Shown here piece by piece: positions 4,297-30,294 of a DNA stretch of 35,317 nucleotides (its first letter is position 1; every line of letters starts with the position of its first letter). Below the pieces are notes generated by a model that saw nothing but the letters and a program-made list of their open reading frames with translations, had not been told where the DNA came from and made no database searches. The DNA lies in contig CANQAQ010000008.1 of assembly GCA_947589275.1 (NCBI GenBank), forward strand, positions 1-35,317, given 5' to 3'. This DNA comes from an uncultured Bacilli bacterium (GTDB lineage: Bacteria; Bacillota_I; Bacilli_A; RF39; UBA660). A program made the position numbers and the translations under genes.

Positions 4297-4310
4297 TTTC
4301 TTATTTTTTT
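4281..4310. terminator. Bidirectional rho-independent terminator
   Basis: A perfect 14-bp palindrome (4281-4294 with 4295-4308; AATT at the centre is the effective loop) is flanked by A and T runs. It sits between the convergent genes ending at 4296 (+) and 4309 (-) and can serve both. Confidence 0.8.
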
Positions 4311-5043: not shown

Positions 5044-5096
5044 TTTATCACCTTCTTTTTACATCAATATTATAATTATATAATTATAAAAGTCAA

Positions 5097-5121
5097 ATAA
5101 AAAGAAGCTTATCTAGCTTCT
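5097..5121 (-). terminator. Terminator of spoVS
   Basis: On the minus strand a 6-bp AGAAGC/GCTTCT stem with a 7-base loop overlaps the last codons of spoVS and is followed by CTTTTTATTT. Confidence 0.7.
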
Positions 5122-5369
5122 ACAATTAATTTTATTGCTGTTCTTTCTTCTGAATCTATTAATATATCAGTAAATGCTGGAATACATACTAAATTTTTAC
5201 CAGATGGTGCAACAAAACCTCTTGCTATTGCAATTGCTTTAATTGCTTGATTAAGTGCCCCTGCACCTATTGCCTGCATTTCTACTGATGATTTTTCCCT
5301 AAAAACATTAGCAAGTGCTCCTGCTACTGAATTTGGATTTGATTTTGATGAAACTTTGATTGTTTCCAT
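5109..5369 (-). CDS. spoVS: Stage V sporulation protein S
   Basis: 86 residues, the standard length of SpoVS. The sequence is typical of the family across its length: ETIKVSSKSNPNSVAGALA at the N-terminus, then AIGAGALNQAIKAIAIARG and NLVCIPAFTDI. SpoVS is a small Alba-like protein that affects spore coat assembly and septation in Bacillus and is highly conserved in spore formers. AGGAGG lies eight bases before the ATG. It is followed directly by its own terminator, so it is probably monocistronic. Together with the ger operon it shows that the host makes endospores. Confidence 0.95.
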   Translation of the reverse strand: METIKVSSKSNPNSVAGALANVFREKSSVEMQAIGAGALNQAIKAIAIARGFVAPSGKNLVCIPAFTDILIDSEERTAIKLIVEAR

Positions 5370-5427
5370 AATTCTTGCCTCCTATCATATTACAATAAAA
5401 TATATGAGGCATTTATAAATTTAAGAA

Positions 5428-5991
5428 CTAATTTAAAAATATATTATTTTCTTTTTCAAATCCTATAGTACTATCTTCTCCATGTCCAGGATATATTATT
5501 ATATCATTAGAATATTTTTTAATCATATCAATACTACTTAACATATCATTATAACTTGCATATTCTAAATCAGTTCTTCCAATTGAACCTTTAAATAAAA
5601 AATCTCCTGTAAACATTATTTTATCATTATAAAAATAAAAAATTACAGAGTCATTCCTATGACCTTTTGAAAAAATAACTTCAAAATCAAAATTACAAAT
5701 ATTATATTTTTCTTCCTTTATATTTACTAACTTATCATATTTTATTTCATTATTAATATTATTGTAATATAAACCTACATTATATTTTTCTAAAATATCA
5801 TTTAATGCCCCTACATGGTCAAAATGTGCATGAGTTAGTAATACACATATTACATTTAAATTCAAATATTCTATCCTAGAAATTATTTTTTCATATTCAT
5901 CTCCTGGATCTACTATAATACAATTACTATCTTTAATAATTAAATAACAATTTTCTTCATATAGTCCAACTACTATTTTTTCTATAATCAT
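5428..5991 (-). CDS. Metallo-beta-lactamase-fold hydrolase (glyoxalase II-like)
   Basis: 187 residues from the ATG at 5991, which has AGGTGA six bases upstream; a GTG at 6000 in the same frame is less likely. Metal ligands are visible in THAHFDHVG (the HxHxDH motif), the FTGDFLFKGSIGRTDL block (ligand Asp) and YPGHGEDSTIG near the C-terminus (ligand His). This is the YqgX/GloB-like branch of hydroxyacylglutathione hydrolase-type proteins, cytosolic and usually binding two Zn/Fe ions. The natural thioester substrate is not known. The start lies 9 bp after the stop of the HAD-like gene at 6001, in a run of compact housekeeping genes from 8041 down. Confidence 0.88.
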   Translation of the reverse strand: MIIEKIVVGLYEENCYLIIKDSNCIIVDPGDEYEKIISRIEYLNLNVICVLLTHAHFDHVGALNDILEKYNVGLYYNNINNEIKYDKLVNIKEEKYNICNFDFEVIFSKGHRNDSVIFYFYNDKIMFTGDFLFKGSIGRTDLEYASYNDMLSSIDMIKKYSNDIIIYPGHGEDSTIGFEKENNIFLN

Positions 5992-6000
5992 ATTATTCAC

Positions 6001-6504
6001 CTAATCAAATATATTTATAAGTTCTTCTAATGATGTTATATTTAAATAATTACAATCATCTTCTTTATATCTAGTAAATTTAACCCCTATTCCACCTTGT
6101 TCCTCCCACTCTTTTAAATTTCCTGAAAAATCATCAACTAATATAGCATTACTAGTTTGAGTCATTTTAGTTTTTGATATATCTTTTGGTACAGGTATTA
6201 TTGTTAAATCAGGAACCATGCTATCTAAATATTTTATTTTTGCCTTTGCTTCTTTTAAAGAATTAACATGAGTTAATATAGATATATTAAATTTATTACT
6301 ATTTTTTAACTTCTTTATAGCATTAATACTATCATTAATATCAGTAGTATCTTCAATTAACTCTTCCCAATCAATTTTTGAAAATAACTTTGCAACTTCC
6401 TTTGTTTGAGTTTTATAATCTAAATTAAGCTCTTTTGCAAGTTTATAAACTGGCCCTAACGTATCAAGTATTACTCCATCAAAATCAATATATAAATTTT
6501 TCAT
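6001..6504 (-). CDS. HAD-like hydrolase (5'-nucleotidase-like)
   Basis: 167 residues. Motif I is YIDFDGVILD near the N-terminus (nucleophile and acid/base Asp), motif II is probably ILTHVNS around residue 75, and LVDDFSGNLKEW around residue 125 gives the acidic motif IV. The overall shape resembles small HAD 5'(3')-deoxyribonucleotidases (NT5C-like), but the substrate cannot be told from sequence. It abuts the pseudouridine synthase upstream (6505) and the MBL hydrolase downstream, so it is probably co-transcribed with both. Confidence 0.75.
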   Translation of the reverse strand: MKNLYIDFDGVILDTLGPVYKLAKELNLDYKTQTKEVAKLFSKIDWEELIEDTTDINDSINAIKKLKNSNKFNISILTHVNSLKEAKAKIKYLDSMVPDLTIIPVPKDISKTKMTQTSNAILVDDFSGNLKEWEEQGGIGVKFTRYKEDDCNYLNITSLEELINIFD

Positions 6505-7185
6505 TTATAACAGCTCCTTTACTTCATTTATTATACCCCATACATCTTCTTGTCTAGGTAATAATTTAAATTCCATTTTTTCTTTTTTTACTGGATGAAT
6601 AAATTCTATTTTATATGCATAAAGTGCAATTTGTTTTTTATCTTTATATCCATATCTTTGATCTCCATATATTGGAGTACCTCTACTACTTAACTGAAGT
6701 CTAATTTGATGATGACGACCTGTTATTAGATTTATCTTTAATAGTGATAAATCTTTTTTATTATCATATTTTATAATATCATAATGGAGAATAGCTTCTT
6801 TTCCATTTTTATCATCTATATATGATGTATTAGTCCTATCATCTTTTGAAATTTTATCAATTAATGTACCACTTTTTTCATCTAATTTTCCATGTATAAC
6901 AGCTAAATAAGTTTTATTAAACCTTTTTTCTTTTACGTCTTTACTTAATCTTGATGCTGCTTTACTTGTCTTTGCAAATACCATTATTCCAGAAACTGGT
7001 CTATCAAGTCTATGAATAAGTCCTAAATATACATTCCCAGGTTTATTATATTTTTCTTTTATATATTTTTTTACCATAGTAAACATATCTATATCATTAC
7101 TTGAGTCTAATTGAGATGGTATATTTTTTATTTTCTCAACAACAATTATATGATTATCCTCATATATAACATTTAATTTATTCAT
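6505..7185 (-). CDS. RluA-family pseudouridine synthase
   Basis: 226 residues from the ATG at 7185. The longer frame from 7212 lies inside the preceding gene, and GGAAGATGGG precedes 7185. Catalytic motif HRLDRPVSG holds Asp61; GRHHQIRLQLSSRGTPIYGDQRYG is the family's C-terminal block. There is no S4 domain, and the protein starts directly with YEDNHIIVVEK. It converts uridine to pseudouridine in rRNA or tRNA; the target site is not predictable. It overlaps the upstream methyltransferase gene by 8 bp (stop at 7178), which suggests translational coupling of two RNA-modification enzymes. Confidence 0.88.
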   Translation of the reverse strand: MNKLNVIYEDNHIIVVEKIKNIPSQLDSSNDIDMFTMVKKYIKEKYNKPGNVYLGLIHRLDRPVSGIMVFAKTSKAASRLSKDVKEKRFNKTYLAVIHGKLDEKSGTLIDKISKDDRTNTSYIDDKNGKEAILHYDIIKYDNKKDLSLLKINLITGRHHQIRLQLSSRGTPIYGDQRYGYKDKKQIALYAYKIEFIHPVKKEKMEFKLLPRQEDVWGIINEVKELL

Positions 7186-8041
7186 TATTTTCCCATCTTC
7201 CATAAATACCACAAGGGAGTATTAAGTTACTATTTTTCATTGGTAAACCTATTTCACCTGACGTTATTTTTCCTTCATATTTTTTATCTATTAAAATATT
7301 TAATATATTTTCTAATACCTTTGCACTCATACCTGTTGTATAAGAATTTATTAGAAAAAATAATGGATTATCGCTTAACAATTCTGTACATAATTTTACA
7401 AGATCATATAAATTATTTTCTATACTCCAAACTTCACCATTTGAACCTCTACCATATGATGGTGGATCCATTACAATTGCATCATATTTGTTTCCTCTTC
7501 TTATTTCTCTTTTTACAAATTTAATAACATCATCAACAATAAATCTTACATATCTATCTTCTAAATTTGAACTTGAAATATTTTCTTTTGCTAATGCAAT
7601 CATACCCTTAGATGAATCTACATGAACAACATCTGCACCAGCATAAGCACATGCAACTGTAGCACCTCCAGTATATGCAAATAAATTAAGTACTTTTATA
7701 TGTCTATTACTTTTCTTTATTTTATCAATCATATAATCCCAATTAACAGCTTGTTCTGGAAATATTCCTGTATGTTTAAAACCCATAAGTTTAACATTAA
7801 ATACTAAATCATTATATTTTACAGTCCATTTATCTGATAATTTTGTTTTATATTCCCAGTATCCCCCACCTGATTTACTTCTATGATAAATTGCATCTAT
7901 ATTGTAATTATTTTCTTTTTCATTACCCCATATTATTTGTGGATCTGGTCTTGATAGTATTACATTATTCCATCTTTCTATTTTCATCCCATTATGCATA
8001 TCAAGTATCTCATAATCTTTCCAATTTTTTGCAACTATCAT
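7178..8041 (-). CDS. Class I SAM-dependent RNA methyltransferase (RlmI-like)
   Basis: 287 residues. Motif I is VLNLFAYTGGATVACAYAG, motif II carries VVHVDSSKG, and the catalytic motif is VMDPPSYGRG. The N-terminal part has GIFPEQAVNW, as in the SAM-binding domain of RlmI/RlmK-like enzymes (23S rRNA C1962 or m7G methylases), but no PUA domain precedes it, so this is the shorter YxjB-like group. The ATG at 8041 has AAGGAAG upstream. First gene of the run going down to 5428. rRNA as target is an inference from family and operon. Confidence 0.8.
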   Translation of the reverse strand: MIVAKNWKDYEILDMHNGMKIERWNNVILSRPDPQIIWGNEKENNYNIDAIYHRSKSGGGYWEYKTKLSDKWTVKYNDLVFNVKLMGFKHTGIFPEQAVNWDYMIDKIKKSNRHIKVLNLFAYTGGATVACAYAGADVVHVDSSKGMIALAKENISSSNLEDRYVRFIVDDVIKFVKREIRRGNKYDAIVMDPPSYGRGSNGEVWSIENNLYDLVKLCTELLSDNPLFFLINSYTTGMSAKVLENILNILIDKKYEGKITSGEIGLPMKNSNLILPCGIYGRWENNE

Positions 8042-13461: not shown

Positions 13462-14505
13462 ATGATAGTTATTAATCCTTCAAAACCTTTTTATATAAAT
13501 AAAAAAAATAAAATTGTTAGAATGGGTAATTTTAAAGAAACAGGAAAAGAAATTGAATATGAAGATAATAAATTCTTAACAATTTTTGAATATATAAAAG
13601 AACCTATTGAATATAATGATTTAGTTTGTAAGTTATTATTAGAAACTAAATATAGTAAAGAAGATATTATTAATACTATAGATTATTTATTAAATGAAAA
13701 TTTCATATGTAATTATGATGATATAGAAAATATATTAAATGATAAATATTATAGTAGAGAAAAATTATATTTTTATATGTTAAATGATAAAGTTATAAAT
13801 TTTACTAGTGATATATTAAATAAAAATATATTAGTATTAGGAATTGGAGGTATTGGATCAATTGTTATTCAAATTCTTGCAAGAGCAGGATTTAAAAATT
13901 TTACAGTTGTTGATTATGATATTGTTGAAAATTCTAATTTAATAAGACAATTATATAATTTAAGTGATATAGGAAAATATAAAGTAGACGTTATAAAAGA
14001 AAAATTATTACAAATTAATAAAAAAATAAAAGTAAATATTGTAAGAAAAAGAATAGAAAAAGAAAAAGATATTAATGAAGAAATTTATAAATCTGATTTT
14101 GTATTATGCACAATTGATAAACCACTTAGAGTAATAAGAAGAATTATAAATAATGTTTGTATAGATAAAAATAAACCTGTTTTATTTTCTGGTTTTTCAG
14201 AACATGTAGCAATGGTTGGACCATTTGTTGTTCCAAATAAGACCGCATGTTTATCATGTATTGAAATAGATGATATTGATGAACCATTATTTAATGTAAA
14301 AGTCTCCCCTTCTTTTGGTCCAGTATGTTATTTAATATCATCAATTGTTTCAAATGAAATAATAAATTATTTTATAAATTTTAAAAATGATAATTTAATT
14401 GGAAAAACGCTTATGTTTAATATGTGTAATTATAAATGTGAAATAATAAAATGGAATAAAAATAAAAATTGTAAAAAGTGTGGTGATAAAAATGATAGTA
14501 AATAA
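13462..14505 (+). CDS. E1-like (ThiF/MccB-type) adenylating enzyme, probable peptide modifier
   Basis: 347 residues; AGGTGA precedes the ATG. Residues about 1-110 form an extra N-terminal domain (FYINKKNKIVRMGNF..., then a small helical part), in the position of the peptide-binding clamp of MccB and of TOMM ThiF-like proteins. From about 120 comes the E1 fold: LVLGIGGIGS binds ATP, DYDIVENSNLIRQ carries the conserved Asn-Leu-x-Arg-Gln, GKYKVDV gives the Lys, and CTIDKP the acidic residue. Zinc ligands are the CLSC pair and the CKKC pair near the C-terminus. All adenylation residues seem intact. ThiF, MoeB and HesA act on ubiquitin-like proteins, but no such partner or thiamin/molybdopterin gene is nearby, while a 21-aa peptide gene lies 59 bp upstream. 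It overlaps the ABC-F gene. Confidence 0.82.
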   Translation: MIVINPSKPFYINKKNKIVRMGNFKETGKEIEYEDNKFLTIFEYIKEPIEYNDLVCKLLLETKYSKEDIINTIDYLLNENFICNYDDIENILNDKYYSREKLYFYMLNDKVINFTSDILNKNILVLGIGGIGSIVIQILARAGFKNFTVVDYDIVENSNLIRQLYNLSDIGKYKVDVIKEKLLQINKKIKVNIVRKRIEKEKDINEEIYKSDFVLCTIDKPLRVIRRIINNVCIDKNKPVLFSGFSEHVAMVGPFVVPNKTACLSCIEIDDIDEPLFNVKVSPSFGPVCYLISSIVSNEIINYFINFKNDNLIGKTLMFNMCNYKCEIIKWNKNKNCKKCGDKNDSK

Positions 14506-18730: not shown

Positions 18731-20125
18731 ATGAATATAGAAGAAATAAAACTACTAATGAAAGACAATCCTGATTTAAAAATAAGAAAAATTAAAAACG
18801 ATAAAACAACTATTAATATAATATACTTTGAAACTATATGTGATACTGAATCAATTAATGACTTTATATTAAAACCTATAAATCAAAATATTATTAAATC
18901 AATTGATGATATTAAAGACAAAATACCAAGTGGAAACTTAAAAAAAATAGAAGATGAAAAAACTTTGTATGACTCATTATATAGTGGATTTACAATAATT
19001 GAAATAAAAAATAAGTTTTTATCTTTTGAAACTAAATATAAACTTGATAGTGGAATAAATGAAGCATCAAATGAAAAAGTAATAAAAGGACCAAAAGATG
19101 CTTTTACAGAAAATTATCAAAATAATATGGGATTAATTAGGAAAAGAATAAGATCAAAAGATTTAGTATTTAATGAACATGTTATTGGTACAAAAAGTAA
19201 AACTAAAGTTTCATTAATATATATGAGTAATATTGCAAATAAAGATTTAATAAATAAAATAGAAAAAAAATTAAAAACTATGTCAGTAGATTATGTTGCT
19301 AATAGTAATTATATATTTGAAAATTTAACTGATAATAATTATATGTTACCAACTAATTTAATGACAGAAAGACCTGATTATGTAAGTTTTGAACTTATGG
19401 AAGGAAGATGTGCAATATTAGTTGAAAATACCCCACAAGTTATTATATTACCTGCATTTTTTTCTGATTTTATAAAAACAATTGATGATTATTATCAAAA
19501 TAGTAAAAATGTTACTATTACTAGGATTATAAGGATTTTAGCACTTATTATATCAATATTTACTCCTGCAATATATATAGCACTTACTACTTTTAATCAG
19601 GAAACTCTTCCAACAAGTGTACTTATAAATTTTTCAATACAAAGAGGTGGTGTTCCTTTTCCATCTATTGTTGAAGCTGTAATTATGTGGTTAACATTTG
19701 AAATACTTAGAGAATCTGATACAAGAATTCCATTTGTTATGGGTACATCTATGTCAATAGTTGGAGCACTTGTTTTAGGACAAGCTGCTGTTGAAGCAGG
19801 ATTAATTTCCCCTATTATGATAATTATAATTGCTGTTTCATCTGTTGCATCATTATTATTTAATGATAATGATATGGTAAATGCAATAAGAATATGGAAA
19901 TTAATATTCTTATTACTTTCTTCTTTTGTTGGCCTTTATGGTGTATTTATTGCAACTATATTATTTATTATAAAATTATGTTCTATGGAATCATATGGAT
20001 TTGATTATACATCTCCTATTGCGCCATTTAATTTAAATGCACAAAAGAATAATGTTATTTTAACAAAGAACTATAAATTAAATAAAAGAAATCCATTTTT
20101 AACAAAAAATATAAATAGGAGGTAA
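18731..20125 (+). CDS. gerAA: Spore germination receptor subunit A (GerA family)
   Basis: 464 residues with AAGGAG before the ATG. The first 240 residues are the soluble N-terminal domain, with family segments such as GPKDAFTENYQNNMGLIRKRI and EGRCAILVENTPQVIILPAFF. Then come membrane segments near 260-280, 336-375 and 388-415, and the conserved block NFSIQRGGVPFPSIVEAVIMWLTFE, with the usual GGxPFP. The tail is short and basic. GerA-type A subunits form the multimeric core of the germinant receptor in the spore inner membrane and respond to amino acids or other nutrients. It starts the A-C-B operon with a 2-bp gap to the next gene. Confidence 0.95.
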   Translation: MNIEEIKLLMKDNPDLKIRKIKNDKTTINIIYFETICDTESINDFILKPINQNIIKSIDDIKDKIPSGNLKKIEDEKTLYDSLYSGFTIIEIKNKFLSFETKYKLDSGINEASNEKVIKGPKDAFTENYQNNMGLIRKRIRSKDLVFNEHVIGTKSKTKVSLIYMSNIANKDLINKIEKKLKTMSVDYVANSNYIFENLTDNNYMLPTNLMTERPDYVSFELMEGRCAILVENTPQVIILPAFFSDFIKTIDDYYQNSKNVTITRIIRILALIISIFTPAIYIALTTFNQETLPTSVLINFSIQRGGVPFPSIVEAVIMWLTFEILRESDTRIPFVMGTSMSIVGALVLGQAAVEAGLISPIMIIIIAVSSVASLLFNDNDMVNAIRIWKLIFLLLSSFVGLYGVFIATILFIIKLCSMESYGFDYTSPIAPFNLNAQKNNVILTKNYKLNKRNPFLTKNINRR

Positions 20126-20127
20126 TT

Positions 20128-21282
20128 ATGAAAAAAATATTTATTATTATAATATTAATCTTATTATTATCTGGTTGCTATAATTATAAAGAACTTAATA
20201 AAATAGCAATAGTTAGTTCTATTTCGATAGATAAAGATAATGATAAATATATAGTTGGTGCACAAGTAATGAATGCAAAACAAGATGATGAAAGTGAAAG
20301 TAGTCAAGTTGTAGTATATGAATCAGAGGGAAAAACTATTAATGAAGCACTTAGAAATATGATCATGAAAGCTCCTAGAACAATATATGGTGGTCATTTA
20401 AGTAAATTAGTAATATCAGAAGAAATTGCTAAAGAGGGAATTATAAATGTTATTGACACATTTCAAAGACAAACAGAAATACGTAATGAATTTACAATTA
20501 CTGTATCAAAGGGTATTAAAGCATCTGATGTTATTAAAGTTATGACATCAACTGAAGCAGTTCCAGCAGAATATGTTAAAACATCTCTTGAAACAGCAGA
20601 TATATCTAGTGCATTAACATATTCAACTAAACTTGATGAATTTGTATCTTATTATTTAAAAAAAGGAATAGATCCAGTTATTGCTGTACTTGAAGTAGAT
20701 AATTATAAGAATAAAGGAACTACAACTGATAATACTACTACAACTAATCCAATTACAAAGATAATACTTAAAAATATTGCAATTACTAATGAAGGAAAAT
20801 TTGAAAAATATTTAACCAAAGATGAAACAATTGGATATAATTTCATTAGAAATCAAGTACAGGAGATGGTAGTACCTATTAAGTGTGATGATAAGTATTA
20901 TGCTTCTATAACAATACTAAAAAATAATACAAAATCTAAAGTTATTAAAATTAATAATAAATATCAAATTAAATTTGATATTAATTCTAATGGTGTACTT
21001 TCAGAATATAATTGTTCTAAAAATCTTACATCAAAAAAAGTTATAGACGAAATTGAGAAAAAAACAGAGAAAAAAATAAGATCTTATATAGATAAAGCTC
21101 TACAAGTACAAAAAAATTCAAAAAGTAAATTTTTAGGATTAGAAAGAACGATATATTTAAATTATCCAAAATATAAAAATGAAGAATTTGATGTTATAGT
21201 AAATGTTAATTTAGAATTAAGTCGTAAAGGAGAAATTAGAAATTCTAGTAAAGGAGCTAAAAATAATGAATACCAAAATTAG
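20128..21282 (+). CDS. gerAC: Spore germination receptor lipoprotein subunit C
   Basis: 384 residues. A lipoprotein signal of 16 residues ends in the lipobox LLSGC with Cys17. The mature part follows the GerAC plan (Ger(x)C family): YNYKELNKIAIVSSISID at the start, then YESEGKTINEALRNM, the YGGHLSKLVISEEIAKEG block and a C-terminal domain rich in Lys/Asn. It would be lipid-anchored outside the spore inner membrane. AGGAGG precedes its ATG inside the end of gerAA. The order A-C-B (not A-B-C) is common in clostridia. Confidence 0.94.
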   Translation: MKKIFIIIILILLLSGCYNYKELNKIAIVSSISIDKDNDKYIVGAQVMNAKQDDESESSQVVVYESEGKTINEALRNMIMKAPRTIYGGHLSKLVISEEIAKEGIINVIDTFQRQTEIRNEFTITVSKGIKASDVIKVMTSTEAVPAEYVKTSLETADISSALTYSTKLDEFVSYYLKKGIDPVIAVLEVDNYKNKGTTTDNTTTTNPITKIILKNIAITNEGKFEKYLTKDETIGYNFIRNQVQEMVVPIKCDDKYYASITILKNNTKSKVIKINNKYQIKFDINSNGVLSEYNCSKNLTSKKVIDEIEKKTEKKIRSYIDKALQVQKNSKSKFLGLERTIYLNYPKYKNEEFDVIVNVNLELSRKGEIRNSSKGAKNNEYQN

Positions 21283-22348
21283 TAATAAAGGTTTTTCAAG
21301 TTTAATATTTTTTACATCACAAGCCATGTTTTTAGGAGTTGGAATTACTCAAATTATTAATTCTAGTAAACAAAATAGTCCATTAGTAGTAATTCTTGGT
21401 TCAATTTTAGGACTATGTGTGCTTTATTTATTTTTAAAACTATTTAATTATGAAAAAGATTTAAATATATTTTTAAAGCTTGAAAAGTTATATGGAAAAG
21501 TTATTGGAAATATATTAAATATATTATTAGTTTTACTTGTTGCTTTTTATTTTATATATACATTATGGAGCATTCAAATATATATACAAAATAAATATCT
21601 TGATAAAACTCCAAGTATAATTATATTAATATTATTTTTAATACCTATTATTTATTCTATAAGTAAGGATATTAAAACTATATCAAAATTATCATTAATT
21701 ATTTTTATAATAGCTATATTTGAAATATTACTATCAATTTTTGGACTTGTTAATCTTATTGAAATTGATAATCTTAAACCTTTTTTTGATACTACTTTTT
21801 CTAATATATTAAAAAATTCATTATATTTTGTTTCTTACTTTTTAACTCCTACATTTATGCTTTTAACAGTTCCTAAAAATCAAATAGAAAATCAAAAAAG
21901 TTTAAATAAACATATAATTATATTTTATATTTTTGGTTGTATAAATTTTCTGTTATTATTTACATTTATAATAGGTATTTTTGGATCTGAACTTGCATCT
22001 TTATTCTATTACCCTGAATTTACATTATTAAAGAAAATAAATTATTTTGATTTTATTCAACATGTTGAAAATATACTATCAACGCAGTGGTTATTTAGTT
22101 TATTTATAAGTGGCGTAACTAGTTTATACTACGTTAATAAATATCTTAATTATAAAAATATTAATAAAAAAATATTTCTTTATATATTTGTCTTAGTTGC
22201 ACTTATAATATCTACAATGTTATTTAAAAATACAACTATTGGATATAATTTAGTTAGAAATTATTTTGTATTTATTTATTCAATACCAATACTTATATTA
22301 GTTATTATTAGTGTAATAATATCTAAATTTAAAAAAAGTAAAAATTAA
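21266..22348 (+). CDS. gerAB: Spore germination receptor permease-like subunit B
   Basis: 360 residues, about ten membrane segments spread across the whole chain, of the amino acid/polyamine/organocation superfamily used by GerAB. The opening ISNKGFSSLIFFTSQAMFLGVGI fits the family. GerAB is thought to bind the germinant. The start overlaps the end of gerAC by 17 bp and has AAAGGAG upstream. It ends four bases into the convergent OGG gene. Confidence 0.93.
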   Translation: MNTKISNKGFSSLIFFTSQAMFLGVGITQIINSSKQNSPLVVILGSILGLCVLYLFLKLFNYEKDLNIFLKLEKLYGKVIGNILNILLVLLVAFYFIYTLWSIQIYIQNKYLDKTPSIIILILFLIPIIYSISKDIKTISKLSLIIFIIAIFEILLSIFGLVNLIEIDNLKPFFDTTFSNILKNSLYFVSYFLTPTFMLLTVPKNQIENQKSLNKHIIIFYIFGCINFLLLFTFIIGIFGSELASLFYYPEFTLLKKINYFDFIQHVENILSTQWLFSLFISGVTSLYYVNKYLNYKNINKKIFLYIFVLVALIISTMLFKNTTIGYNLVRNYFVFIYSIPILILVIISVIISKFKKSKN

Positions 22349-23268: not shown

Positions 23269-23547
23269 ATGTCATGTAAAAATAAAGATAATGGGAGTAA
23301 AAAGAAAGAAAAAAGAATTTTTTGCGAAGCTTGTACATGCTCAAAAGACGATAATGATAAATTAAAAGTTGAATGTATAAACTGTGAAGATGATAGTAAC
23401 AAAATAATTGTTTGTGATACATGTAAGTGTGTAGATGATAATGTAAATAATAATAAAGAAATTCGTCTTGAAAATTGTTCTTTAGATGGATGTGAAGAAA
23501 AAACAATTTACATCACATGTACAGAATATAATGAAGATTTAAATTAA
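23269..23547 (+). CDS. Small protein with 12 cysteines, unknown function
   Basis: 92 residues; AAAGGAG precedes the ATG. Cysteines lie at 3, 19, 22, 24, 36, 39, 49, 52, 54, 70, 75 and 84. Two similar blocks, FCEACTCSKDDND (18-30) and VCDTCKCVDDNVN (48-60), each with C-x-x-C-x-C, suggest an internal duplication; CxxC at 36-39 fits metal binding or disulphides. The rest is very rich in Asp, Asn, Glu and Lys, with no signal peptide. I do not recognise a family. A metal-binding or spore coat protein would fit, but this is a guess. It is followed by its own terminator. Confidence 0.7.
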   Translation: MSCKNKDNGSKKKEKRIFCEACTCSKDDNDKLKVECINCEDDSNKIIVCDTCKCVDDNVNNNKEIRLENCSLDGCEEKTIYITCTEYNEDLN

Positions 23548-23564
23548 TTTTAAATCTTTTTATT
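23534..23564 (+). terminator. Terminator of the 12-Cys protein gene
   Basis: A 10-bp stem AAGATTTAAA/TTTAAATCTT (23534-23543, 23549-23558) that includes the stop codon and runs into TTTTATTT. Confidence 0.7.
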
Positions 23565-23591
23565 TACAAAGCAGTAAAGATATTGTATACT
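23563..23591 (+). promoter_or_regulatory. Sigma-A promoter of the UPF0316 gene
   Basis: TTTACA (23563-23568), a 17-base spacer and TATACT (23586-23591), immediately after the preceding terminator. Confidence 0.65.
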
Positions 23592-23615
23592 GATTAAAGT
23601 AAAGAGGTGTAAAGT

Positions 23616-24134
23616 ATGGAACTATTATTATTATGTATAAAAATATTTATTGGAAGACTTGTAGATGTTACTTTATCTACTTTAGTAACAGTAAATGTAG
23701 TTAAAGGTCAAAGAGCTAAAGCTACTGTATTAGGTTTTATTGATGTATTTATATGGTTTATAATTGTTAAAGAAGCACTAAATACTGATATTGAAAGTAT
23801 TTGGATTGCTCTATCATATGCTGGAGGATATGCTGCCGGTACATATGTTGGAAGTTTATTATCTCAAATATTTAATAAAGGTACAGTAAGTGTACAAATT
23901 ATTACTAAAGATATTGATAAAAAGGTTACTAATATAATTAAAGATTCTGGTTATTCTGCATCTATAATAGAATGTAAAGGTATATATGCACAGGATACTA
24001 ATTATATGATATATGCTCAAATTGAAAATAAAAAACTAAAAGATTTTAAGAGTCTAGTAACAAAAATCGATGAAAATGCATTTATTACAGTTACAGAAAG
24101 TAAAGAAATGCTAAATGGATATTTAGGAAAATAA
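23616..24134 (+). CDS. UPF0316 membrane protein (DUF5698/DUF2179, YebE-like)
   Basis: 172 residues; AGAGGTG precedes the ATG. Three membrane segments in the first 95 residues (LLLLCIKIFIGRLVDVTLSTL; TVLGFIDVFIWFIIV; ALSYAGGYAAGTYVGSLL) match the UPF0316 core, and residues about 98-168 are a DUF2179 cytosolic domain (TVSVQIITKD..., FITVTESKEMLNG). The family is widespread in Bacillota; its function is not established. It is the last chromosomal-looking gene before the recombinase remnant. Confidence 0.88.
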   Translation: MELLLLCIKIFIGRLVDVTLSTLVTVNVVKGQRAKATVLGFIDVFIWFIIVKEALNTDIESIWIALSYAGGYAAGTYVGSLLSQIFNKGTVSVQIITKDIDKKVTNIIKDSGYSASIIECKGIYAQDTNYMIYAQIENKKLKDFKSLVTKIDENAFITVTESKEMLNGYLGK

Positions 24135-24173
24135 AAATATCTCTTTTTTTTAACTAAACCCCAGATACATTTT

Positions 24174-25406
24174 TTATGTAACATTTTTAAATGTAAATAT
24201 AATATCTATCCTCTTATCTTGATAGATATAGATTTTTTCTACTAAATTAACTATTAATTCTCTAGTTGGTTTTTCTAATGATAAAAATTCATCTATATAT
24301 TTTTCTATTTGCTTTTTATCTACTTTATTTGAAACTATTTGTTCATTTTTAAGATTATCAATATTTGATTTATTATCTTCTATTTCTTTTTTTAGACTAT
24401 CACTAATTCTCTTGTATTGTTCTTCATCGATTATACCTTTTAACATATCCCTATAAGTTTTATCTAGATTATTTGTTAATTTTTTATTTGTTAATTCTAA
24501 ACTTTCAATTTGTTTTTTTATCTTTAAAGTATTATCTTCAAATGTCATATTACCTATAGAATCTTTTATTTTGCTTTTATCTAAATACTTTTCACAGACA
24601 CTTTTTATTTCTTCTAAAATAACATTCTCTAGTGTTTCATAATTATTGGTATGCGTTGTACAAACATGATATTTAGAATAAGTTCTATAATAATCACAAG
24701 TAGTATAACTTCTTCCTGTTTTATTTTGATATCTTATTGTTATTCTATGTTTACAATCTCCACAATACAAAAGTCCATCTAATAAGTAAAATCTTTTCTT
24801 TTCAGGTCTTTTAACATTTTTAGGTAAAAGTGTTTGAACATAATTGAAAGTATCTCTATCAATAATTGCCTCATGTGTATTTTCTACTATTATAAATTCT
24901 TTAGGATTATTTTTGATTGTCTTTTTAAGTTTGTAATTAATCTTTTTGGTCTTACCTTGAACTGTATCTCCTACATATATTTGATTAGTCAAAATTGACT
25001 TTATTGTAGTATCAACCCATACACCATATTCTTGTGATATACAATTAGTATTTATACTCTTTGTATTCCAAACATAGTTGTAATAAGATGCTGGTGTTTT
25101 TATTTTCCTTTTAGTAAGTTCTTGTGCTATAAAGTGATATGTATTACCTTTGAGTGCTAAATCAAATATTAATCTAACAGTCTCTGCTTGTTCCTCATTT
25201 ATAATTAAATGATTTTTATTATTTGGATCTTTCATATATCCAAAAGGACATCTTCCTGATACATATAAACCCTCTTTCATTCTTGAATGTAAACTTGTTT
25301 TAACCTTTTTAGAAATATCTTTAGCATACATATCATTCATTATTGCTTTAAAAGGTGCTATATCATTATTAGTATTATCTATAAATGTATCAATTCCATC
25401 ATTATT
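24174..25406 (-). pseudogene. Large serine recombinase, catalytic domain deleted
   Basis: What remains encodes about 410 residues in frame with the recombinase, beginning NNDGIDTFIDNTNNDIAPFK directly after a TAA; the longest ATG-initiated frame starts at 25340. It contains the linker MNDMYAKDISKKVKTSLH, the recombinase domain (about 20-150), a zinc ribbon (LLYCGDCKHRITI... CTTH) and a Lys/Glu coiled coil. The N-terminal resolvase domain of about 120 residues, with the catalytic Ser, is absent. Upstream sequence instead belongs to a ribbon-helix-helix gene in another frame. It is a remnant of an integrative element that can no longer catalyse strand exchange, although the DNA-binding part could still be made. 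Confidence 0.87.
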
Positions 25407-25492
25407 TTAGTTATAGAGATATTATAAAATTTTGAAAGTAATTTTATTCGTTCGAATAATTCTTCAGATAAATAAAAATTAAATCTTCTCAT
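25379..25492 (-). pseudogene. 5' fragment of a ribbon-helix-helix (CopG/MobC-like) gene
   Basis: 37 residues from the ATG at 25492 (AAAGGAG, nine-base spacing): MRRFNFYLSEELFERIKLL then SISITKIMMELIHL-like helices, typical of the strand-helix-helix start of RHH DNA-binding proteins on mobile elements. It ends at TAG 25379-25381 only because it runs into the recombinase gene in a different frame. The last codons overlap the recombinase remnant, so the gene is a truncated junction product. Confidence 0.65.
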
Positions 25493-25506
25493 ATACATCA
25501 TCTCCT

Positions 25507-25769
25507 TTGCATGATGAATGGTAGCTCCAATCATTAAAAGAGTCAAGTCATAAAGTATAGAAAGTTTTGTCTATCATCCTAAAATAGTTAAGAATCTATT
25601 AAAATATTGAATAGCAGGATAAGAAGTTTACACATCAATACTAAATTATCACTTATTTCATAAGAGTTTAGCATTGTGTAAAATTATTTCGTACTTACGA
25701 AATTCATCCTACTTTGTAGGTTACTATAAAGGATAAAGTTAATAATATCAATACATTAGAGCATTAAAA
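25507..25769. other. Gene-free stretch with stacked hairpins
   Basis: No reading frame with a ribosome site was found. Three inverted repeats follow each other: 25627-25645 with 25667-25682 (imperfect, TTTACACA...TGTGTAAA), 25686-25692 with 25697-25703 (ATTTCGT/ACGAAAT), and 25108-like CCTAC/GTAGG at 25708-25712 and 25716-25720. They may form a structured RNA, an attenuator or the remains of an element end. GC is higher here than in the surrounding intergenic DNA. Confidence 0.4.
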
Positions 25770-25813
25770 AATCATCCTATTTTTTATTTATCTATAATTT
25801 TTATAGGATGATT
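25770..25813 (-). terminator. Strong terminator after the Cys-rich precursor gene
   Basis: An 11-bp perfect stem (AATCATCCTAT 25770-25780; ATAGGATGATT 25803-25813) with a 22-base loop. On the minus strand it ends in TTTTTT, 37 bp after the precursor stop; A/T runs on both sides allow either direction. Confidence 0.78.
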
Positions 25814-25849
25814 AAAAAAATAAATAAGTAGTTGTACTAAAATTTTGTA

Positions 25850-26020
25850 CTAAATTAAGCTAGTCAATCTTTTTCTATAAGCTATTGTTAAGTTTCCTAA
25901 ATTATTATTTAATGAAAATTTACAATTGCAATTACAGTTGCTACAAGTACATTGATTAGCTACTACCAATTTTTCTTTTTTTAACTTTGCTAAAGCTTTT
26001 GTTCTGTTAGCTAAAATCAT
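25850..26020 (-). CDS. 56-residue Cys-rich RiPP precursor (substrate of the radical SAM enzyme)
   Basis: The ATG at 26020 follows GGAAAGGAAGG, which overlaps the end of the radical SAM gene (stop 26022-26024); the frame ends with TAG at 25850. A basic N-terminal leader (NRTKALAKLKKEKLVVANQ, residues 5-23) is followed by a core with five Cys at 24, 26, 29, 31 and 33 (C-T-C-S-N-C-N-C-N-C) and then a 23-residue tail (FSLNNNLGNLTIAYRKR...) without Cys. Alternating Cys next to a SPASM radical SAM maturase is the pattern of clostridial Cys-rich peptides (CLI_3235/CcpM type) and of ranthipeptides, where Cys is linked to a neighbouring residue by a thioether. Family assignment is tentative; the operon link is firm. 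Confidence 0.82.
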   Translation of the reverse strand: MILANRTKALAKLKKEKLVVANQCTCSNCNCNCKFSLNNNLGNLTIAYRKRLTSLI

Positions 26021-26021
26021 A

Positions 26022-27362
26022 TCAATCAGCCTTCCTTTCCAAATTACTTTCTATTGTAACATAAAAATATTGTTTTATCAACCATTCAAGCAGCTTTTTA
26101 TAATATATACATGATGCATTATCCAAATTTGTTCTCTTACCAAATAATACTTCAGCTTGCAAAGGACATCCTCCACCACAAACTGATAGTGCTGGACAAT
26201 ATTTACATTCTTCCTTGTCTATTGTATACATTTTTAACCATTCGTTATTTGCAGGATTATTTAAAATATCTGCTATATCATCTTTAATTATATTTCCGAC
26301 AATATTTTTATATGATCTAGAATCTCCTTGACATATACATACATCTCCATTGGGCTTTATAGTTAATTGATTTAGTCCAACTGCACCACAACTATGGAAT
26401 TTAAAAGTTTGATTTAAAAACATTTCAATTTGCTCTTTTACTTTTTCTTCATCAATACCATTGTCTTTTAATTTTTTATAAGAATTTAATATAAAATCAC
26501 TCATTTTATTATAATGTTTTTCCCAATCATTAGTGTTACTAGAATAATGATATAAATTCCAAAAAACATTTTTAATCTTACTATCTATTAACCAATTTAA
26601 TACTTCTTGTTCATTTTCTACTACATCGGGTGTAACAGTTGCAGATACACAATAACTGCTATTCATGTTATTTAATAATTTTATAGCAGCCATTGCTTTA
26701 TCATAAACACTGTTGTTACCGGATTTGAAAACTCTATTTTTATCATTTATGAATTTTGGGCCGTCAATAGAAATACCTATTCCAATATGTTTATCCATTA
26801 AAAATTGTATTATTTCTTTCGTTAACAATGTACCATTTGTAATAATTGTTAATGTTATATTCGATTTTTTTTCTTCTTGAATATAATTTATCGTTTTTTT
26901 TACAACTTCAAAATTTGTTAAAGGTTCTCCTCCATAAAAAATTATTTGAGATTCCTTTATCTTATTTTTTTCTAATTCTGCTAAAAATTTATCAACAGCA
27001 ATTTTTGCAGTTTTAAAGGACATTTTGGTATATTTTTGGCTTGAAATGGGACTGCTTTCAATAAAACAATATTTACAAGCTAAATTGCAAAAAGTTGAAA
27101 CATTTAAATACATAATTGTTGGAATTTTTACTTGCTTTTTAATTCCAAATTTTAATGTTTCATAAACCTCTTCCATATCAGATGTTGTTTCATAAATACC
27201 ATTTTCTATCATTAATTTTGTTTCTTCTTTTGTTAAATTAAAGTTTTTTATATCATTGATTTTTTCCTTTTCAACAAATATTATTTGCATTAATATTGAA
27301 TTAAATATTGCTTCATATTGCTCATCCATTTTAATATGTTGAAAATATTTTGATAATTTCAT
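26022..27362 (-). CDS. Radical SAM/SPASM peptide maturase
   Basis: 446 residues from the ATG at 27362; TAGGAGGAAATAGT just upstream fixes this start over an in-frame codon at 27410. Residues 1-80 precede the barrel and may bind the leader peptide. The radical SAM site is C92-NLA-C96-KY-C99; IFYGGEPLTN and TLTIITNGTLL are the next family motifs. The C-terminal SPASM domain has Cys in FHSCGAVG, VCIC, ECKYC, VCGGGCP and NASC, enough for two auxiliary 4Fe-4S clusters. Such enzymes form thioether or C-C crosslinks in peptides. It lies between a methyltransferase gene (stop 27364) and the Cys-rich precursor gene, both adjacent without spacers, so they form one operon. Confidence 0.9.
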   Translation of the reverse strand: MKLSKYFQHIKMDEQYEAIFNSILMQIIFVEKEKINDIKNFNLTKEETKLMIENGIYETTSDMEEVYETLKFGIKKQVKIPTIMYLNVSTFCNLACKYCFIESSPISSQKYTKMSFKTAKIAVDKFLAELEKNKIKESQIIFYGGEPLTNFEVVKKTINYIQEEKKSNITLTIITNGTLLTKEIIQFLMDKHIGIGISIDGPKFINDKNRVFKSGNNSVYDKAMAAIKLLNNMNSSYCVSATVTPDVVENEQEVLNWLIDSKIKNVFWNLYHYSSNTNDWEKHYNKMSDFILNSYKKLKDNGIDEEKVKEQIEMFLNQTFKFHSCGAVGLNQLTIKPNGDVCICQGDSRSYKNIVGNIIKDDIADILNNPANNEWLKMYTIDKEECKYCPALSVCGGGCPLQAEVLFGKRTNLDNASCIYYKKLLEWLIKQYFYVTIESNLERKAD

Positions 27363-27363
27363 A

Positions 27364-28119
27364 CTATTTCCTCCTAATAACAAAAATTTGTTTCCTGCTA
27401 GTTTTATCAAATTTTTCTAAATTATAATCTCCATATAAACCAATTATTTCAAAATCATAAGCTTCAAATATATTAATTATTTCTTGATGAAAAAATATCC
27501 TGTTTGGTAATATATATTCTTTTATAGTTTCGCCATTACAAACATACTTTTTTTTGTATATACAAGTCAAATTAATGATATCAAATTTTCTACTTTCATA
27601 TAATTCTATCATTTTATTTTTCATATTAAATTCATTTGTTTTAATATAATTACTTACATCTAATAAATCATTTATTGTAGGGTTAATTGTATCAATAACT
27701 ACTTTCGTATCCTTGCTACATAATTTTTTTAAATTATTAAAGCACAATTTTATATCATTCACATCATAAAAATTATTTATTACATTAAATGGAAAAATTA
27801 TTAAATCATAAGTTTTATTAACTAAAAAAGTTTTAAAATCACTATTATATAGTTTTACATTTTTATAATTATATTTTTTGTTACAATATTCAATTATTTC
27901 TTTAGAAAAATCAACACCATCATATAAGTCAACTTTATCATGTAATAATTTTATTAATCTACCATTACCGATACCAACCTCCAAAATTTTTTTTGAATTA
28001 TAATTATTTATTATTTTTGACCAAAAATATATGTCATCTTTATAGTTTTGAAATTCATTTATATATAAATTGGGAGTTGAATATAATTTTTTAATTAATT
28101 TATTATAATCATTTTTCAT
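27364..28119 (-). CDS. Class I SAM-dependent methyltransferase in the RiPP operon
   Basis: 251 residues. Motif I KILEVGIGNGRLI (about residues 39-51), motif II YDGVDFSKEII and motif IV YDLIIFPFNVINNFY mark a Methyltransf_25-like enzyme; DTINPTINDLLD follows. The start overlaps the upstream rRNA-methyltransferase-like gene by 11 bp, and the stop lies one base before the maturase start. The substrate may be the peptide or something unrelated; its place inside the operon favours a role in the product or in immunity (inference). Confidence 0.8.
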   Translation of the reverse strand: MKNDYNKLIKKLYSTPNLYINEFQNYKDDIYFWSKIINNYNSKKILEVGIGNGRLIKLLHDKVDLYDGVDFSKEIIEYCNKKYNYKNVKLYNSDFKTFLVNKTYDLIIFPFNVINNFYDVNDIKLCFNNLKKLCSKDTKVVIDTINPTINDLLDVSNYIKTNEFNMKNKMIELYESRKFDIINLTCIYKKKYVCNGETIKEYILPNRIFFHQEIINIFEAYDFEIIGLYGDYNLEKFDKTSRKQIFVIRRK

Positions 28120-28951
28120 TTTTATTCCTTAAGACATATATATTTAAAGCAATAGTGATTTTATCAATTTTGGGAATTTCTTTATAATTATTTAAAAGTG
28201 GGGTCATATTAATCAAATAATTAAAAGTTTTATTATCTAGTGTAAATGTTTTAATATATTCGTCTTTCTCAATAATTTCATATTTTTTCTTTATATTATC
28301 AAAAATTATATTTTCATTTTCATATTCTTTAATATTTAATATATCCCTAATTTCATGTAAATATTGTTTTTTAGGAGTTACTTTTATTATTATGCCATCT
28401 TGCTTTAGCAAACGTCGCATTTCATTTTCGTTGGATGGGGATAATATATTTAAAATTACATCTATAGAATTATCCTTTATAGGCACACTATTTAAATCAG
28501 AAACTATTCCAATAATATTATGACTTATATAATCGTTATATAAATCTATTCCATCTTTTGATAAATCTATTCCTATCATTTGTAAATTACTGTCATTTAA
28601 TTTTTTTAAAATTTTGTAATCATGAGTTCCTTCTCCAGAACCCATATCTAAAATTTTTTCATTTTTGCCATTTTGAATAATACTACATATTCTGTTGTGT
28701 AATTCATCATAAAATCCACTATTAATAAGATTTCGTCTATTGGTAAATAATTTTTTGTTATAAATCTTATCTTGTTTTAATTTTGATGTTTTATACAGAA
28801 TTATTGTGCCTTTTTTTGATATATTAAATGTATGATTATTTATACACTTTAAACTATTATCACAAAAATTTAACTTTTCGGCACAAAAAGGACATATAAA
28901 TATTTCACTTAATCTATCATAATTATTCACAAAATAATCAATCTTCTTCAT
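28109..28951 (-). CDS. RlmA-type 23S rRNA (guanine-N1) methyltransferase homologue
   Basis: 280 residues from the ATG at 28951 (GGAAGGAG eight bases before it, better than the one at 28966). The N-terminal zinc ribbon is C-x-x-C (FICPFCAEKL) with a second pair C...H in LKCINNHTFNISKKG, as in RlmA and TlrB. Then comes motif I ILDMGSGEGTHDYKIL and the block DLSKDGIDL; SPSNENEMRRLLKQDG fits RlmA's late motif. RlmA makes m1G745 in Gram-negatives, and its relatives at G748 (TlrB, RlmA-II) give resistance to tylosin-type macrolides. As first gene of a peptide-product operon it could confer self-immunity, though a housekeeping role remains possible. Confidence 0.82.
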   Translation of the reverse strand: MKKIDYFVNNYDRLSEIFICPFCAEKLNFCDNSLKCINNHTFNISKKGTIILYKTSKLKQDKIYNKKLFTNRRNLINSGFYDELHNRICSIIQNGKNEKILDMGSGEGTHDYKILKKLNDSNLQMIGIDLSKDGIDLYNDYISHNIIGIVSDLNSVPIKDNSIDVILNILSPSNENEMRRLLKQDGIIIKVTPKKQYLHEIRDILNIKEYENENIIFDNIKKKYEIIEKDEYIKTFTLDNKTFNYLINMTPLLNNYKEIPKIDKITIALNIYVLRNKNEK

Positions 28952-28977
28952 GTAGACTCCTTCCATTGAATAATAGT

Positions 28978-28983
28978 ATTATA
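28978..28983 (-). promoter_or_regulatory. -10 box of the Cys-rich RiPP operon
   Basis: TATAAT on the minus strand, 26 bp before the first gene's ATG (28951). No good -35 hexamer is found at 16-18 bases, so the promoter may need an activator. Confidence 0.5.
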
Positions 28984-29079
28984 CCACACAAAAAGACATT
29001 TTTCTTCAAAATGCCTTAAATTTAAACAATATTTTTATATTTTTATATTGCTACTCATTATTCCCCATAAAAATTCTAT

Positions 29080-29107
29080 CCCCGGTTTCTACGACTAAGA
29101 AACGGGG
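29080..29107. other. GC-rich hairpin, terminator or IS200/IS605-type end
   Basis: CCCCGGTTTCT (29080-29090) pairs with AGAAACGGGG (29098-29107) with one bulged C and the loop ACGACTA. It is the most GC-rich stretch nearby and has TTCAT right after it. It could end the ZIP transporter transcript (minus), but its T run is weak. Compact GC hairpins of this kind also occur at ends of IS200/IS605 elements. No transposase gene is present. Confidence 0.4.
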
Positions 29108-29131
29108 TTCATATAATTTAAGGGATATTTT

Positions 29132-29878
29132 TTATTCAAATAACATACTAATAAATATTATTAATATTCCAATTATTATTCCAAAAATAGATAATATTTT
29201 ATTTTTATTATGAAGTAAATGAGGTATAAGCTCAAAAATAATTATATATATTATCATACCAATAGTTATACACATAAGTATACCTATAATAATATCATTT
29301 AAAATTGAACTAATAAATAACATAAGTAATCCACCAATAAATGTTGATAATCCTACTAGTGATAATAGTATTATTTTTTTATTTTTATTTTCTTTTTCAA
29401 TAGTAGAATATATTATCATACCCATTGGTATATTATGTAGACCAATACTAAGTGCCATTAAAATACCAACTTTTGTTGATTCTAAAGTAATATTATAAAC
29501 AGCCATTCCCTCAATAATATTATGAAGAACAATAGCTATTGAAGAAACTATACCAATATGAACTAAATTTTGTTTTGTACAATCATGACTTAAGCCATGT
29601 TCACTATCATGTTCTGGTATAAATTTGTCTAATAATTTTAATAATAATATTCCAACTATTACTAATGATAATATTAATGATAATGTAATTATTATGTTAT
29701 TACTTTTAAATATTTCAAAAACTTCAGGAATTAACTCAGTAGATATTAATGATAACATTGTTCCTAAAGCTATTGATATTGATAGTTGCTCAATAATTTT
29801 ACTATTATTAGTTAGTTTTATAACTAATACCCCAATAAATATAAATATACCTAAAATAAATGTTATTAAAAGACCCAT
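29132..29878 (-). CDS. ZIP-family metal transporter
   Basis: 248 residues with about eight membrane segments. The metal-pathway motifs are LHNIIEGMA in segment IV and LHNIPMGM in segment V; the loop between segments III and IV is His-rich (PEHDSEHGLSHD). ELIPEVF in segment II and ELIPHLL near the C-terminus are also typical. ZIP proteins import Zn(II), Fe(II) or Mn(II); the metal is not predictable. AGGTGAC precedes the ATG. It is transcribed away from the PepSY gene with 26 bp between them, so it may share its operon. Confidence 0.88.
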   Translation of the reverse strand: MGLLITFILGIFIFIGVLVIKLTNNSKIIEQLSISIALGTMLSLISTELIPEVFEIFKSNNIIITLSLILSLVIVGILLLKLLDKFIPEHDSEHGLSHDCTKQNLVHIGIVSSIAIVLHNIIEGMAVYNITLESTKVGILMALSIGLHNIPMGMIIYSTIEKENKNKKIILLSLVGLSTFIGGLLMLFISSILNDIIIGILMCITIGMIIYIIIFELIPHLLHNKNKILSIFGIIIGILIIFISMLFE

Positions 29879-29904
29879 AAGTCACCTCAAAAAATATAAA
29901 TAAA

Positions 29905-30294
29905 TTAATCTCTTTCTCTAAATGATTTTATAATATTACCATTTGATGCATTAATAAAATACTCATACTCATAATTTTGATAATTAAAATTAACTTCATA
30001 AACTGTTTGATTATACTTATAATCAACTTCAATATCTATATCATAAATATCACTCTTACTTAATTTAACATCATCTAATGCTATATTTAAAGCACTTTCT
30101 CTAGATATATAATTTTTATTTTCATTAGAATCGTTATTAAAATGTATATTATTATTCTCATCATATAAATTTCTAATTTCTTTTCTTTCATTATTAAACT
30201 CTATTATAAAAAATATAGAGAAACCTATTAATAAAACTATTATTACTATAAGTAATATTATAATATTCTTTAAATTATTTTTTTCTTTTTCCAT
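29905..30294 (-). CDS. PepSY-domain membrane protein
   Basis: 129 residues. One N-terminal membrane segment (about 10-32, IIILLIVIIVLLIGFSIFFII) is followed by a linker and a PepSY domain at about 62-125 (SRESALNIALDDVKLSKSDIYDIDIEVD..., YEYFINASNGNIIKSF). PepSY domains are found in extracytoplasmic proteins, often protease inhibitors or envelope sensors. GGAGG precedes the ATG. Its neighbour upstream is a small membrane protein. Confidence 0.83.
   Translation of the reverse strand: MEKEKNNLKNIIILLIVIIVLLIGFSIFFIIEFNNERKEIRNLYDENNNIHFNNDSNENKNYISRESALNIALDDVKLSKSDIYDIDIEVDYKYNQTVYEVNFNYQNYEYEYFINASNGNIIKSFRERD

Follow-up and report, generated by a model that had tools for sequence, protein, structure and literature searches.

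A mobile cysteine-rich peptide cassette with an RlmA-like methyltransferase in uncultured gut Bacilli: a candidate RiPP family

What is made by a small cysteine-rich peptide gene that lies behind a radical S-adenosylmethionine (SAM) enzyme and two methyltransferases, and on which substrates do these methyltransferases act? This question is raised by a compact four-gene operon on the minus strand of contig CANQAQ010000008.1 from an uncultured Bacilli bacterium (assembly GCA_947589275.1), of which positions 1 to 35,317 were analysed, a stretch of 35,317 nucleotides (nt) hereafter called the window. The operon represents a conserved family of ribosomally synthesized and post-translationally modified peptides (RiPPs) that has no curated model, is marked by an invariant CxCxxCNCNC core and occurs in uncultured tiny-genome gut Bacilli; to our knowledge, no RiPP has been described from these organisms. 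The explanation that we favour, if tentatively, is a horizontally moving, thioether-type RiPP cassette in which an RlmA-like methyltransferase provides self-protection. Rarely do genomic data by themselves hint at the target of a peptide in a direct and testable way, as the RlmA-like gene does here.

The operon and selection on its precursor

The operon comprises, in the order of its genes, an RlmA-like methyltransferase, a second methyltransferase (MT2), a radical SAM/SPASM maturase and a precursor of 56 amino acids (aa), with the following features:

28993-29017, minus strand: inverted repeat followed by a T-run (-10.6 kcal/mol, z -3.3), directly 5' of the promoter; end of an upstream transcript or operator
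28978-28983, minus strand: likely -10 element TATAAT with extended TG (TGTGGTATAAT), read from the sequence as the operon promoter
28109-28951, minus strand: SAM methyltransferase of RlmA-like type, 280 aa, its Zn ribbon at the N-terminus; matches PF21302 and 1P91, and NF008300 below the cut-off
27364-28119, minus strand: MT2, a further SAM methyltransferase of class I (251 aa), found in clade I only; candidate peptide-tailoring enzyme
26022-27362, minus strand: radical SAM/SPASM peptide maturase with RRE-like (RiPP recognition element) N-terminal domain, 446 aa
25850-26020, minus strand: RiPP precursor, 56 aa, with the core CTCSNCNCNC at residues 24-33
25765-25825, minus strand: AT-rich hairpin with T-run (-11.3 kcal/mol, z -2.4), putative operon terminator

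All four genes are intact in the window and tightly packed: the start of MT2 overlaps the 3' end of the RlmA-like gene, a single nt separates MT2 from the maturase gene, and the ATG of the precursor, preceded by the ribosome site GGAAAGGAAGG, lies 1 nt past the maturase stop. The layout agrees with a first-pass annotation of the same DNA, which had described a cysteine-rich peptide operon with two methyltransferases 5' of a SPASM maturase. That annotation had also called the terminator strong; a hairpin is indeed present, and the adjective was generous, as the hairpin at 25765-25825 is not among the entries of a consensus terminator scan. An Rfam search of positions 23500-30000 gave no matches.

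The precursor reads MILANRTKALAKLKKEKLVVANQ-CTCSNCNCNC-KFSLNNNLGNLTIAYRKRLTSLI, that is, a basic leader, five cysteines and a Cys-free tail of 23 aa. The pattern C.C..C.C.C is not a product of chance, since all six frames of the window together contain it a single time, 60 first-order Markov windows do not contain it at all, and every locus found has it at the precursor position only. Six homologous precursors of clade I, the group of relatives to which the window belongs (see below), were compared for the proportions of non-synonymous (pN) and synonymous (pS) change. While pN and pS amount to 0.12 and 0.60 for the whole precursor gene, to 0.14 and 0.55 for the leader and to 0.19 and 0.60 for the tail, the core codons (A-N-Q-C...C) have a pN of 0.000 against a pS of 0.69; values for the other cassette genes are 0.12/0.58 (maturase), 0.25/0.56 (MT2) and 0.21/0.56 (RlmA-like gene). 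The amino acids of the core have thus stayed constant although synonymous sites are saturated, which shows that the precursor is a real gene and the core its most constrained portion. In one relative, L005, an additional Asn-Cys unit gives a six-Cys core. The first-pass annotation had found no matching pattern for a five-Cys core followed by a long tail together with the methyltransferases; the cassette indeed matches no named family, and the tail has turned out to be a family trait, since a Cys-free tail, with a Tyr near the C-terminus in most members, terminates the precursors of all three clades. It is perhaps a follower segment.

The maturase and its nearest known relatives

The maturase contains a radical SAM domain and a SPASM domain (Pfam PF04055, 8.8e-19; PF13186, 5.8e-9) and has the cysteines that generally characterize radical SAM/SPASM RiPP maturases, namely a CxxxCxxC motif (C92/C96/C99) and seven SPASM cysteines (C325, C344, C386, C389, C395, C399, C418), all of which are invariant in 13 homologues. 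An AlphaFold model (mean pLDDT, the model's confidence score, 81.8) matches ChlB (9gmc) with Z 31.8 over residues 77-438, CteB (5wgg) with Z 31.2 over residues 4-436, anSME with Z about 30 and TigE (8vpo) with Z 29.3 over residues 1-437. An RRE-like domain at the N-terminus is supported by this model, because CteB and TigE align over maturase residues 1-80 and the predicted order of strands and helices is that of an RRE-type domain. CteB is itself an RRE-bearing maturase that forms a thioether in a SCIFF peptide (PMC8326336).

Every named NCBIfam equivalog is missed widely by the window maturase, in line with the earlier remark that no named family matches. The nearest one, and the best for all 13 maturases, is FibroRumin (TIGR04136), with 201.1 bits against a cut-off of 400; its precursor model TIGR04135 (cut-off 45) does not match the window precursor and reaches 14.2 bits with that of L005. 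PapB ranthipeptide maturases (NF047865) follow with 160 bits against 340. With SCIFF, the system of CteB, the cassette shares the full-length maturase fold including the RRE-like domain and a Cys-rich precursor adjoining the maturase; in contrast, the maturase scores 133.8 bits against 425 for the ScfB model TIGR03974, the precursor has no SCIFF match, and the window cassette is patchy, mobile and equipped with methyltransferases. The resemblance to CLI_3235/CcpM systems that had been suggested at first holds for the combination of a Cys-rich precursor with a SPASM maturase in Gram-positive anaerobes, but not for the family, as the precursor has no TIGR04065 match at E<=10 and the maturase scores 120.8 bits against 500 for TIGR04068.

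In the one FibroRumin locus examined, on the Campylobacter plasmid p16187MP2 (L074, positions 3442-7244), the precursors are likewise CxC-rich (CTGCMCSCRCSC, CACVSCNSCTCACSC), whereas their leader and tail are unlike those of the window and methyltransferases are absent; instead, the maturase is followed by a UvrA-like ATP-binding cassette (ABC) protein that contains the DNA-binding domain of UvrA. Self-resistance-like partner genes may be a recurrent theme in such systems. The literature collection searched contains no paper on FibroRumin, TIGR04135 or TIGR04136.

Taken together with the SPASM architecture, the CteB-like fold makes thioether formation, considered from the outset, probable. 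The maturase would bind the basic leader via its RRE-like domain and link the cysteines of the CxCxxCNCNC core to nearby Asn, Ser or Thr residues or to the Cys-free FSLNNN tail. If one linkage had to be named, we would choose an Asn Cbeta-thioether of NxxC type: such a link is described for NxxcA (PMC8326336), and the Asn-Cys alternation of the core (N28..C31 and N30..C33, the second one also in clade III) has the same spacing. Alternatively, a nested hairpin might join the core to the FSLNNN tail.

Family, distribution and mobility

Relatives were sought in genome contigs and in 386 genomes of the host's family, where the maturase is present in 13 genomes and 12 of 150 genera. The maturase tree resolves three groups (support: I, 100/100; II, 87/91; III, 96/97), which match three locus arrangements. 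Clade I (the window, L003, L004, L005, L006, L007 and L008) has the RlmA-like gene, MT2, the maturase and a precursor of the form ...ANQCTCSNCNCNC(K/N/R)(F/M)S(L/F)(N/D)NN.... Clade II (L009, L010, L047, L048) has a GNAT acetyltransferase and no methyltransferases, followed by the maturase, a precursor of the form YASVC.SCACGGG..SCNTTCKGCKDK... and a ~328-aa protein (MIIDTHSH... or MIIDAHSH...) for which no Pfam match was obtained. Clade III (L049, L050, L051, L052) combines the RlmA-like gene and the maturase with a divergent precursor on the opposite strand (...SS(S/T)CNCG(S/T)CNCNC...), short of which the contig of L050 stops. The core CxCxxCNCNC is common to clades I and III.

So far, this three-clade family is limited to one bacterial family. 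A class-wide search retrieved no further member; a phylum-wide search with TIGR04136 gave no matches, with its controls likewise at zero. Plasmid and phage collections contain distant radical SAM proteins only (<60% identity; best plasmid match 32%), and scans of viral contigs for the maturase and FibroRumin gave two weak partial matches and no close relative, so that there is no link to phages. PADLOC matches, which might have pointed to a defence system, are superfamily cross-matches (viperin, Mads), and this assignment was rejected.

In the window, the cassette is part of an insertion with the following surroundings:

24140-29120, no strand: ~5-kb insertion between the DUF2179-type and ZIP transporter genes, borders uncertain by ~40 bases
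24174-25340, minus strand: remnant of a serine recombinase that has Recombinase and Zn_ribbon domains but lacks the catalytic N-terminal one; in the inserted element
25379-25546, minus strand: small open reading frame (ORF) within the insertion, its product reading like a ribbon-helix-helix protein
23616-24134: DUF2179-type gene, left neighbour of the insertion
29132-29878: ZIP transporter gene, right neighbour of the insertion

The two neighbours are adjacent in five genomes of the same genus (L084, L085, L086, L087, L089), separated by ~80 bp in L086 and by a single ORF that reads like a glycosyltransferase in L084, so the extra ~5 kb of the window consists of the recombinase remnant and the cassette. 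Serine recombinases also lie beside the cassette in L003, L008 and L051, and insertion sequences disrupt it in L006 and L008. While the maturase is 78-83% identical across genera, the DUF2179 neighbour is 66-83% identical within the genus and 38% identical to that of G351, a contrast that fits horizontal spread, though rates differ between proteins. Judged from these comparisons, the cassette is a mobile unit, given the empty site in five same-genus genomes, the recombinase remnant and the scatter over 12 of 150 genera.

Several further observations concern the sites of insertion. At 29080-29111, near the right border, the GC-rich hairpin CCCCGGTTTCTACGACTAAGAAACGGGG resembles an IS605-type end; as it is single copy in the genome, this identification is unsupported. 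In L005 (positions 1-600), five tRNA genes stand immediately 5' of a clade I cassette without the RlmA-like gene and are a possible integration site. An NMT1-type ABC transporter operon adjoins the cassette in L003, L010 and L051 (partly in L006), with the cassette inside the operon in L051; this proximity in three of about twelve genomes, at differing positions, may mark a hotspot, or else the association is unexplained. The transporter was rejected as a candidate exporter or partner of the cassette, because it is of the importer type and nearly all genomes have it, whether they carry the cassette or not; in the window's own genome it is located on a different contig.

What the RlmA-like enzyme may do

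The RlmA-like protein carries the Zn ribbon of RlmA (Pfam PF21302 Zn_ribbon_RlmA, 2.1e-7) as a CxxC...C...H motif, followed by a Rossmann methyltransferase domain. A profile of nine homologues matches E. coli RlmA(I) (1P91) with E 9.8e-31, far ahead of other solved structures, and the model aligns with 1P91 at full length with Z 27.1 over 256 residues (runner-up 17.5). Neither the Zn-ribbon ligands C20, C23, C36 and H40 nor an MTP motif at the C-terminus varies within clades I and III, and two stand-alone RlmA proteins share them. Zn ribbon, domain order and fold are thus those of RlmA(I), RlmA(II) and TlrB; in contrast to these, the window enzyme is encoded within a RiPP cassette and lies below the cut-off of NF008300.

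The gene is not a resident one acquired by chance. Among the first 25 genomes of the family, it is found in two, both of them cassette carriers, the others scoring <=33 bits against 132. Within the cassette family, it accompanies the CxCxxCNCNC types (clades I and III) in 10 of 11 genomes and is absent from all four of clade II; it has been retained in two cassette types of differing gene order, while MT2 is confined to clade I. Hence, the RlmA-like enzyme travels with the core type and is no housekeeping gene picked up by accident.

In B. subtilis (tlrB) and in the organism that makes tylosin, RlmA(II) methylates G748 of the ribosomal exit tunnel; this modification confers resistance to tylosin, and in the producer the enzyme is a self-resistance determinant (PMC6851288). 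The exit tunnel is also the site that is blocked by the peptides klebsazolicin and phazolicin (PMC7136475). By analogy, the RlmA-like enzyme would methylate helix 35 of the producer's own 23S rRNA as self-protection, the product would act in the exit tunnel, and MT2 may tailor the peptide. To self-resistance as the role of the RlmA-like enzyme we give slightly less than an even chance, and the ribosome is a conceivable target that we regard with somewhat more reserve. The complete picture, a mobile thioether RiPP that hits the exit tunnel and brings its own 23S rRNA methyltransferase as immunity, amounting to a new antibiotic class with TlrB-like built-in resistance, is accordingly rather speculative. 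If true, it would link radical SAM peptides to ribosome inhibition and reveal a mobile source of RlmA-type methyltransferases.

Several points weigh against self-protection and an antibiotic role. The cassette contains no exporter, peptidase or classical immunity gene, which leaves the antibiotic role a conjecture, and SCIFF-type peptides have been argued to be non-antimicrobial (PMC8326336). The RlmA-like protein scores 132.3 bits with NF008300, the G745 RlmA equivalog, below the cut-off of 303, and its substrate may have shifted; this cut-off is passed by one of 14 control genomes and is thus a strict test for RlmA(I). The weightiest objection comes from L005 of clade I, which lacks the RlmA-like gene both at the locus, where a tRNA array, a promoter and an orphan ribosome site take its place, and elsewhere in its genome bin; the gene cannot, then, be required in every case. 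Neither protein pI (isoelectric point), which does not discriminate here between rRNA and peptide methylases, nor a search for the 23S rRNA pattern around G745/G748, with no hit in 19 genomes including complete ones and the rRNA apparently not among the sequences searched, adds to the matter.

The strongest competing reading, though a doubtful one, is that the peptide is the substrate of both methyltransferases. The RlmA-like enzyme would then have been recruited from an rRNA methylase to act on the cross-linked core or the termini of a methylated thioether peptide without any link to the ribosome. This reading is consistent with the co-occurrence of the gene with the CxCxxCNCNC core type, with its score far under the equivalog cut-off, with its loss in L005, where the core has an extra Asn-Cys unit, as would suit dispensable tailoring, and with the RiPP methyltransferase LahSB (6uak) among the weaker structural matches (Z 15.0). 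However, both clades have retained the rRNA-type Zn ribbon in full and without variation, although a peptide methylase has no obvious use for it, and no other structural match comes near 1P91 (Z 27.1, runner-up 17.5). Considered for the RlmA-like enzyme by itself, peptide or other tailoring is a serious possibility that we would not expect to prevail; it would mean that an rRNA methylase was recruited to RiPP tailoring. MT2 is the likelier peptide tailor and the sole ordinary tailoring candidate left. The first-pass expectation of a peptide methylated by both enzymes therefore survives for MT2, while the RlmA-like enzyme, as a homologue of rRNA methylases, is perhaps an immunity factor, and its homology shifts the leading hypothesis from a methylated peptide to a peptide with ribosome immunity.

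A role as a signal, secreted or intracellular, or as a housekeeping peptide, as proposed for SCIFF ranthipeptides, is unlikely for the product; in this reading, the methyltransferases would modulate it. The CteB-like maturase fold with its RRE and the lack of export or immunity genes would suit such a role, and a quorum-sensing function of SCIFF ranthipeptides has been reported (reference cited in PMC8326336); the cassette, however, is patchy (13 of 386 genomes) and carried on an insertion, unlike the widespread SCIFF peptides, and its disruption by insertion sequences in two relatives speaks against a housekeeping or signalling function.

Very improbable is a metallophore or metallothionein-like peptide whose Cys core binds metal, with the radical SAM modification being secondary. 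The spacing of CTCSNCNCNC is metallothionein-like, with CxC/CxxC suited to Zn or Cu, and the adjoining host gene encodes a ZIP transporter; yet the maturase that is co-inherited with the precursor is of the peptide cross-linking type, and the ZIP gene is no partner, since it is a fixed neighbour also in cassette-free genomes. That the precursor ORF is a chance or decaying remnant without a product, as the truncated recombinase next to it and a C-terminus three residues longer than that of its relatives might suggest, is already refuted, because the core lacks any non-synonymous change in spite of saturated synonymous divergence and all four genes are intact.

Other loci of the window lie apart from the cassette. 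At 13462-14505, this 0.9-Mb genome encodes a ThiF/E1-like protein (PF00899) with an N-terminal extension of ~110 aa. Since ThiF-like proteins are known from other RiPP pathways, a second peptide system is possible. Between the OGG and DUF2179-type genes, positions 23269-23547 encode a 92-aa protein with twelve cysteines and no family match, which is 53-58% conserved in same-genus genomes. Finally, a complete GerA/GerC/GerB-type spore germination operon (PF03323, PF05504, PF03845), conserved in the genus, is located at 18731-22348, and sporulation would be notable for a genome as small as 0.9 Mb.

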